Source: an uncultured Clostridia bacterium (GTDB taxonomy: Bacteria > Bacillota > Clostridia > Lutisporales > Lutisporaceae). From it: a stretch of 36,568 nt of DNA. Shown piece by piece: positions 7,511 to 27,121 of the stretch. The notes under the pieces were generated by a model. It made no database searches. It was not told the DNA's origin and saw only the letters and a list, made by a program, of their open reading frames with translations. Where the stretch lies: contig CALGKJ010000167.1 of the NCBI GenBank assembly GCA_937930535.1, forward strand, positions 1 through 36,568, written 5' to 3'. The translations under genes and the position numbers were made by a program. Each line of letters opens with the position of its first letter. Within the stretch, counting starts at the first letter, position 1.

Positions 7511-7519
7511 TTTAATTAG

Positions 7520-7712
7520 TACCCAAAATGCCGCTTAGTCATATTTTGATCCCTAGCGAAGCTAGGTGGGTATTCTGACTTGGCTTTGTACCTTCCTCTG
7601 ACTGAATATAAACTGTAAATTGAGGCTTGGTACTACAACATGTACGCGAATTCCCTTATCAGAACTGTAGGTTCAAAATATGAGACATTGCAAACATCTC
7701 AGGCTTCGTTAA
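7520..7712 (-). ncRNA. ssrS: Probable 6S RNA (RNA polymerase-binding regulator)
   Basis: Read on the minus strand this 190-nt stretch folds as a 6S-like rod. The outer closing helix is CCTGAGATGTT (7703-7693) with GGCATTTTGGG (7532-7522), all 11 positions pairing if G-U is allowed. The inner closing helix is CATATTTTGA (7682-7673) with TCAAAATATG (7549-7540), 10 perfect pairs. A large central bubble carries a small 5' hairpin (CTACA/TGTAG) and a 3' hairpin (CCTAGC-ttc-GCTAGG, 7566-7552). The terminal stem is GTACC-aag-CCTC with GAGG-aa-GGTAC. The 5' end GCCTGAGATGTTTG resembles, from memory, the start of Bacillus 6S RNA. It ends at the shared terminator. Known role of 6S RNA: sequesters housekeeping RNA polymerase in stationary phase. 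The 5' end is approximate. Confidence 0.75.
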
Positions 7713-8499: not shown

Positions 8500-8512
8500 C
8501 TCATCAGCTATA

Positions 8513-8556
8513 GAGAAACAACTTTAAAATTAAATTTATCCAGTTGTTTCTTAAAA
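8513..8556 (+). terminator. Hairpin after the DUF402 gene, resembling the stem found upstream of glpP
   Basis: AGAAACAACT (8514-8523) pairs with AGTTGTTTC plus T (8542-8551). The T-run is poor (TTAAAAAT). The left arm with its flank (CTATAGAGAAACAACT) is nearly identical to CTATGAGAGAAACAACT at 26467-26483, so it may belong to a repeat family as well as terminating transcription. Confidence 0.55.
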
Positions 8557-8607
8557 ATAGATTAGCAACTCTTAACAAACATAATCAAAATTTCAGGAGG
8601 TACATAC

Positions 8608-26305: not shown

Positions 26306-26311
26306 TATACT
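26306..26311 (+). promoter_or_regulatory. Possible -10 box ahead of the tandem repeat
   Basis: TATACT lies inside the palindrome TAGTATACTA (26303-26312). There is no good -35 box; the matching position falls in the T-run of the terminator. A start from here would begin inside the first arm of repeat copy 1. Confidence 0.3.
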
Positions 26312-26410
26312 AGAGCTAAGACACTTTAAAGTTGAAAATACTTTCAACTAAAAGTCTCTAAGCTCTATGAGAGAAATAACTGGAAAAACTAAATTATGAA
26401 GTTATTTCTC
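26311..26410 (+). repeat. Structured tandem repeat, copy 1 (glpP upstream region)
   Basis: Two hairpins. Hairpin A: TAGAGCT (26311-26317) with AGCTCTA (26361-26367); then a symmetric 5x5 internal loop (AAGAC / CTCTA); then ACTTT (26323-26327) with AAAGT (26351-26355); then GTTGAAA (26331-26337) with TTTCAAC (26342-26348) and a 4-base loop. Hairpin B: GAGAAATAACT (26371-26381) with AGTTATTTCTC (26400-26410), 11 perfect pairs. Copy 2 follows at a spacing of exactly 102 bases. Confidence 0.85.
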
Positions 26411-26412
26411 TG

Positions 26413-26513
26413 TATAGCTAAGACGCTCTAAAGTTGAAAATGCTTTCAACTAAAAGCCTCTAAGCTCTATGAGAGAAACAACTAGAAAAACTCAATTTTT
26501 AGAGTTGGTTATC
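26413..26513 (+). repeat. Structured tandem repeat, copy 2 (glpP upstream region)
   Basis: Offset 102 bases from copy 1. From GCTAAGAC to GAAAAACT (76 bases) only six positions differ. Hairpin A keeps its inner stem, GTTGAAA with TTTCAAC, and its internal loop. The A-U pair 26323-26355 of copy 1 is G-C here (26425-26457). Hairpin B is GAGAAACAACT (26473-26483) with AGTTGGTTATC (26503-26513), 9 of 11 paired; the U-A pair 26377-26404 of copy 1 is C-G here (26479-26507). A TATAAT follows at 26514-26519. Confidence 0.85.
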
Positions 26514-26519
26514 TATAAT
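26514..26519 (+). promoter_or_regulatory. Candidate -10 box for the glpP-glpK transcript
   Basis: Consensus TATAAT, 41 bases before the GTG of glpP, directly after repeat copy 2. No consensus -35 box (CTCAAT at 26492-26497, 16 bases upstream). If this is the promoter, the repeats are upstream DNA elements rather than a transcribed leader. Confidence 0.45.
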
Positions 26520-26554: not shown

Positions 26555-27121
26555 GTGGGGTCATTATTTTATAGCAAAATACATGCCTGTCCAATAATAG
26601 CGGCAGTTACTGATATGGAAAAGCTAAAAGAGGCAGTAGCTTCACCCTGTGAGATTGTATTTATGCTTACAGGAAACATCTTTAACATCAGGGAAGCTGT
26701 ACAGGAAATAAAACAAAACCACAAAATGGTATTTGTACATTTAGATCTTTTAGAAGGGTTATCCAAGGATTCCACAGCCATTAAATATTTAAACAAGACT
26801 ATTGAACCAGATGGTATAATTACAATTAAAAGCGGCTTAATAAAAATTGCCAGGGAAATGGGTATGTTCGCTATACAAAGGCTGTTCTTTGTAGATTCAT
26901 TATCAGTAGAATCAGGCATTAAGACTGTAAATAATTCTAAGCCTGATGCAATAGAAATAATGCCGGGTATTATGCATAGTGTGACATCGAGAGTATGCAA
27001 TGAAGTTAGAATTCCTGTAATCACAGGAGGTCTAATTAATGATAAGGATGATGTTATTGCTTGCTTAAAAGCTGGAGCTATGGGCATATCGACTAGTAAT
27101 AAGGAAAACTGGTATTTATAA
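26555..27121 (+). CDS. glpP: GlpP-type glycerol-3-phosphate-responsive antiterminator
   Basis: An RNA-binding regulator that, with glycerol 3-phosphate, lets transcription pass leader terminators of glp genes (known from Bacillus subtilis). The 188-residue protein shows the family sequence from CPIIAAVTDMEKL (residues 11-23) through VFVHLDLLEGLSKD, DGIITIKSGLI and DAIEIMPGIMHSV to VITGGLINDKDDV and AGAMGISTSN, in a TIM-barrel-like arrangement. The GTG start follows TGGAGGTAA. It is 12 bases upstream of glpK, clearly an operon. A likely target, a leader terminator, lies downstream of glpK. Confidence 0.93.
   Translation: MGSLFYSKIHACPIIAAVTDMEKLKEAVASPCEIVFMLTGNIFNIREAVQEIKQNHKMVFVHLDLLEGLSKDSTAIKYLNKTIEPDGIITIKSGLIKIAREMGMFAIQRLFFVDSLSVESGIKTVNNSKPDAIEIMPGIMHSVTSRVCNEVRIPVITGGLINDKDDVIACLKAGAMGISTSNKENWYL

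Follow-up and report, generated by a model that had tools for sequence, protein, structure and literature searches.

Short intergenic palindromic repeats of known type

RUP: The repeat unit of pneumococcus (RUP) is 107 bp long, and IS630-Spn1 has been proposed as its mover (PMC2229807, PMC3049150). The element upstream of glpP described here resembles RUP in size, AT-richness, high copy number, terminal inverted repeats, TA target, intergenic position, and proposed mobilisation in trans by IS630. In contrast, it belongs to another host group, is built of two palindromic modules, each also found by itself, and frequently forms 102-nt tandems.

Correia elements and NEMIS: These Neisseria elements are about 107 and 155 bp long (PMC2229807). 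Terminal inverted repeats with a terminal TA, target duplication, RNA able to form long stem-loops, and size variants are common to them and the clostridial element. However, roles of IHF and RNase III are described for the Neisseria elements alone (PMC2229807).

BOX elements: The BOX elements of S. pneumoniae are likewise modular and have an internal module that can be repeated (PMC3049150). Unlike BOX, the clostridial element has modules that are each bounded by the terminal-repeat motif, and BOX is linked to ISSpn2 and not to IS630 (PMC3049150).

Clop-1 and Clot-1: The 93-bp Clop-1 of C. perfringens and the 74-bp Clot-1 of C. tetani are, by their description, intergenic stem-loop repeats of similar size in clostridia (PMC2267715).

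Judged by the type features given in these papers, the nearest analogues of the element are RUP and Correia/NEMIS (PMC3049150, PMC2229807). A partial full-text literature search found no description of such a clostridial MITE. The element is a previously undescribed family of a known kind, compared with RUP, Correia/NEMIS, Clop-1, and Clot-1 by description only.

The tandem element upstream of glpP

The window is the whole analysed stretch of 36,568 nucleotides from an uncultured Clostridia bacterium (contig CALGKJ010000167.1). The hairpin pair that it carries before glpP is two back-to-back copies of a very short dispersed transposon and not a dedicated glycerol switch. With high confidence, the locus is explained as a MITE, a non-autonomous DNA transposon, of two palindromic modules, mobilised by IS630 and present as a tandem pair; that the mobilisation occurs in trans is what we infer. 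The features in the window are as follows.

8509..8578, - strand: truncated MITE copy (module B plus half of A) between two genes (nhmmer E 1.5e-12)
26311..26412, + strand: MITE copy 1 (subfamily T1, AB form), element plus TA, with the left TA at 26311-26312 (E 1.5e-19)
26311..26367, + strand: palindromic module A of copy 1 (hairpin A), from the fold
26370..26411, + strand: palindromic module B of copy 1 (hairpin B), an inverted repeat whose outer arm is of the right terminal repeat type
26413..26517, + strand: MITE copy 2 (T1, AB form), with a right terminal repeat of T2 type (chimeric) (E 2.3e-16)
26501..26517, - strand: right terminal inverted repeat of the tandem, TATAGATAACCAACTCT, with the right TA at 26516-26517 (from the sequence and the terminal-repeat pattern)
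26514..26519, + strand: TATAAT made up of TATA from the element end and AT from the host, by sequence reading a possible -10 box of glpP
26555..27121, + strand: glpP, glycerol-3-phosphate responsive antiterminator (PF04309, E 3.7e-66)

A preliminary description had reported two copies in a 102-nt register, each composed of hairpin A and hairpin B, and both the alignment and the predicted fold bear this out. Positions 26311-26395 and 26413-26497, the first 85 of each copy, share 91% identity and lie exactly 102 apart, a register that a 100-bp element plus TA would account for. The predicted folding energy is -36.5 kcal/mol for copy 1 (z -8.2) and -25.3 for copy 2 (z -3.5); the complementary strands of both copies fold slightly better, so that the hairpins are strong on both strands. 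Module B of copy 1 contains a perfect 12-nt inverted repeat (26370-26381/26400-26411). The 5x5 internal loop AAGAC/CTCTA described earlier is replaced in the prediction by an AGA/UCU helix flanked by two 1x1 mismatches. Differences between the copies do exist, but they are not as few as first described: the 17 aligned positions that differ exceed the mean of 11.3 for random T1 pairs.

The two compensatory changes reported between the copies are present when these are compared with each other and with the family. For the change from A-U at 26323/26355 to G-C at 26425/26457, copy 2 has the derived state relative to the family. For U-A at 26377/26404 versus C-G at 26479/26507, C-G is the consensus of the family, which makes the state in copy 1 the derived one. 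Copy 2 has AGAGTTGGTTATCTATA as the 3' arm of its hairpin B. This arm corresponds to the terminal repeat of the other subfamily and is not a diverged form of the arm in copy 1; copy 2 is therefore a chimera. No ORF of at least 80 aa covers 26311-26517. The truncated copy at 8509-8578 had been overlooked in the same window.

Copy number and distribution

The genome of origin comprises 4.69 Mb in 252 contigs, and blastn gave dozens of loci in it among the matches listed. A covariance model built from 27 units detected at least 150 full-length units, all with E <= 3e-13. The 21-nt terminal-repeat pattern, with up to three mismatches, matched this genome 588 times versus 8 times for the reversed control, and a fair estimate from these matches is a total of roughly 250-300 elements. 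The copy counts come from lower-bound searches and about 150 individually retrieved genome stretches. An exact 24-nt T1 pattern gave no match in a collection of genome contigs, being too specific.

Among 22 genomes of the family, the element occurs only in its own genome and in a sister species; the covariance-model search did not find it in the 20 others. It is rare in the sister species, with one strong copy at E <= 0.001 and a second match at E <= 0.01. A full-length copy there lies just before cysK (identified by eye), and the orthologous cysK region of the own genome is without the MITE and carries a different hairpin repeat. Searches of plasmid and phage collections gave no match to the element, and viral contigs searched with the terminal repeat gave one isolated match. 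In other genomes, several matches to this pattern arose by chance, lying inside genes or being unpaired (e.g. L161, L164, L167, and L175).

The hairpin repeat upstream of cysK in the own genome, a third one (ATGAAAATAAAGCTGCGTCTGTC...GGGTAGACC...), was observed at L087/L196 (G000:C44, just upstream of position 45790). A sequence related to it is found, cargo-like, inside a 153-bp element bounded by the MITE terminal repeats (L155, 982-1134).

Subfamilies, modules, and origin of the tandem

The 114 aligned copies form two subfamilies, T1 with 19 members including those of the window and T2 with 95. T2 ends in TATAGATAACCAACTCTAAAA and, on the opposite strand, TATAGAGAAACAACTTCAAAA, which are terminal inverted repeats; the terminal repeat is weaker at the left ends of T1. 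At their inner ends, both hairpins also carry a motif like the terminal repeat, in inverted orientation. The forms present are solo B (about 48 bp), solo A (about 57 bp), AB (104), AB+A, and ABAB.

Tandems could arise when the element plus TA is duplicated locally, or when another copy inserts at the terminal TA of one already present. None of the 21 multi-unit blocks contains an inverted unit, and in some tandems (L002, L075, and L078) the mates differ at one position or not at all. The constant orientation together with near-identical mates favours local duplication of the element plus TA, in some cases at least. The pair in the window may be either an old duplication or two insertions. Its divergence above the T1 mean speaks for two independent insertions, as do the different elements inserted end to end in related genomes (L250 and L246), but the lack of inverted units and the near-identity of some mates speak against it, and independent insertion is the somewhat less likely origin of this tandem.

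Evidence for mobility and the putative mobiliser

One copy of the element (L010) lies within another repeat, of which an empty copy exists (L018, 91% identity over 132 nt). The filled site reads CCTTGTG-TA-element-TA-GAGACTTAG and the empty site reads CCTTGTG-TA-GAGACTTAG, which is a TA target duplication. Such a duplication is a hallmark of the IS630/Tc1-mariner superfamily. This is a single clean empty site, and since the TATA-rich ends adjoin the TA, the exact cut is ambiguous by 1-2 bases. The features of a MITE are found in the non-coding 102-nt units, their high copy number (at least 150), their terminal inverted repeats, and the target duplication at one site pair; TA, the target dinucleotide of a MITE mobilised by IS630, is seen at L010/L018. 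A flank search in 210 kb of the sister genome revealed no orthologous empty site with both flanks together.

The repeat that hosts this insertion (L010, L018, and L020) is larger; one of its ends carries AACGTGAGTTCGATA, and the opposite end carries the reverse complement of this sequence. The motif GATAAAGATTTTACAT adjoins MITE insertions at L013, L135, and L159 and possibly represents a further repeat family.

Movement of the element would depend on an IS630/Tc1-mariner transposase acting in trans, with ends of the TATAGATAACCAACT type as its recognition sequence and TA as its insertion site. Two IS630 DDE_3 loci are present in the own genome, and both were rejected as the mobiliser, one being broken and the other having unrelated ends. 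No autonomous IS630 whose ends match was found in this genome, where the draft assembly may conceal one. The terminal repeat is matched 63 times in Maledivibacter halophilus, 235 times in Bacillota MAG.222, 43 times in Anaerovirgula multivorans, and 27 times in Clostridium beijerinckii HUN142, with no match in the controls. In these four genomes, the elements that it delimits are 51-310 bp long and have unrelated interiors.

Bacillota MAG.222: A 1222-bp IS630 element (L250, 1344-2565) encodes HTH_33 and DDE_3 and ends in TAAAGATAACCAAAAC and TATAGATAACCAAAAT, which share only the first 13 bases with the MITE terminal repeat. It is abutted by a 104-bp MITE. In the same stretch (L250, 1240-2867), a second MITE lies about 200 bp from the other end of the IS630 and is directly followed by another IS630-type end.

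Clostridium beijerinckii: Three IS630 copies (L252, L254, and L255) end in TATAGATATCCAACTTAAGAA or one base off. Each is cut by a contig edge, leaving one end visible per copy, and one of them directly abuts a 310-bp MITE.

Mobilisation in trans is thus well supported for an IS630-type transposase as a type, the candidate enzyme of the own genome not having been found. The common end of 13-21 bp links widespread clostridial palindromic repeats to IS630-type transposases and provides a simple annotation handle for these repeats, which probably cause breaks in draft assemblies and changes in promoters. As a tentative and rather doubtful extension, a clan of TA-inserting palindromic MITEs may exist across Clostridia, with the terminal repeat alone in common and unrelated interiors; each module described here would in itself be a mobile unit of minimal size (48-57 bp), and some copies would have come to serve as promoter ends or as sites of RNA processing.

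Meaning of the paired changes

Pairing-preserving double changes in the stems number four in T1 and five in T2, and these nine compare with about 0.3 expected in each subfamily, or about 0.6 in all, if the arms varied independently. This excess indicates that palindromicity is maintained. Selection on one RNA strand should tolerate G-U more than A-C. The ratio of G-T to A-C mismatches is 8:5 in T1 (p 0.58) and 18:24 in T2 (p 0.44), with totals of 26 and 29. Because the two kinds are equally common, the compensatory changes do not show RNA function, even though they exceed chance. There is no sign of strand-specific RNA selection, the counts being small enough for a weak effect to be possible. 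Template switching in replication can make paired changes in one event (PMC8794818). DNA-level maintenance of the palindrome or such template switching, either of which would predict mismatches of both kinds alike, fits better: the fold would correspond to facing inverted repeats in DNA, and the compensatory changes to palindromicity that is maintained or to template switching. Compensatory changes between two hairpin copies are accordingly weak evidence of RNA function in general.

Genomic setting and alternative explanations

The element is intergenic in 131 of the 132 copies placed against ORFs. Between co-directional genes, its orientation shows no bias (39 versus 30, p 0.34), and the flanking gene pairs include 21 divergent and 7 convergent ones. 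The neighbouring genes look unrelated and include, by eye, obg, a patatin-like gene, rpmB, a purR-like gene, and a topoisomerase. In the window, the genes downstream encode GlpP, glycerol kinase, and an FAD-dependent oxidoreductase.

The location directly upstream of glpP-glpK, the strong hairpins, and the two compensatory changes had suggested a tandem riboswitch or a GlpP-binding antiterminator leader controlling these genes. However, at least 150 units lie elsewhere beside unrelated genes, and among 14 glpP loci of the family scanned with the model, the window's alone matched and the 13 others did not. At the sister glpP locus, similarity to the window starts at the gene, with none before it. 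Moreover, G-U is not favoured over A-C, the region has no terminator-like site, and Rfam 15 gave nothing at the gathering threshold and only sub-threshold microRNA noise at a low threshold. Regulation of this kind is highly improbable. The preliminary description had held scattered matches with no conserved downstream function to point away from a regulator, and this scatter is what the dispersed, almost wholly intergenic units display; of its four options, the tandem riboswitch, the GlpP-binding leader, and the paired operator fall with the dispersal of the units and their absence from 13 other glpP loci, leaving the dispersed hairpin repeat. A false riboswitch candidate is thereby removed. 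By present evidence glpP is a neighbour without a functional link to the element, which probably inserted before it by chance.

A dispersed repeat could also be spread by other enzymes or serve the host. Short intergenic palindromes in high copy, some of them in tandem, would suit REP/BIME-type repeats, with a RAYT (Y1) transposase spreading them, or some other IS200/IS605-like element, but Y1 transposase (PF01797) had no match in the own genome, where the positive controls worked. Insertion of the IS200/IS605 type is not known to create a target duplication, and the TA duplication seen at the empty site makes this origin scarcely credible. A role for the host at the level of RNA or DNA (an RNA-processing site, a transcription terminator, or a protein-binding palindrome), of the sort that some NEMIS and BOX copies have been claimed to play, is compatible with a MITE. 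It would accord with hairpins that are strong on both strands, with the excess of pair-preserving changes, and with the 97 copies that have a gene no more than 600 bp away on either side, at median distances of 71 and 79 bp. The right end of the element can also complete TATAAT, which at 26514-26519 lies 35 nt before the glpP start, and it is a possibility, read from the sequence, that this end affects glpP transcription. In contrast, orientation is unbiased, TATAAT is completed at only 10 of 65 right ends, and the window locus has no promoter-like pair on the + strand, the promoter scan having found no -35 partner for this TATAAT. Such a host function is unlikely, and the MITE mobilised by IS630 is preferred with or without it.

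Three MITE copies (L009, L020, and L147) lie in the loops of apparent terminator hairpins. A preference for terminator loops was rejected as a general rule at 3 of 138 copies, though this is above the 0.1 expected. Another palindromic repeat family (TATAGGGAAGCAACCATAAAA...CTTCCCTTCT) is present in the window at 1983-2040, apparently in a terminator loop (AACCCCTTAG...CTAAGGGGTT). The motif at its ends is similar to the MITE terminal repeat and occurs in 13 retrieved loci of the own genome, some of them overlapping. The window also contains a 6S RNA gene at 7516-7708 on the - strand (Rfam RF00013, 69.2 bits).
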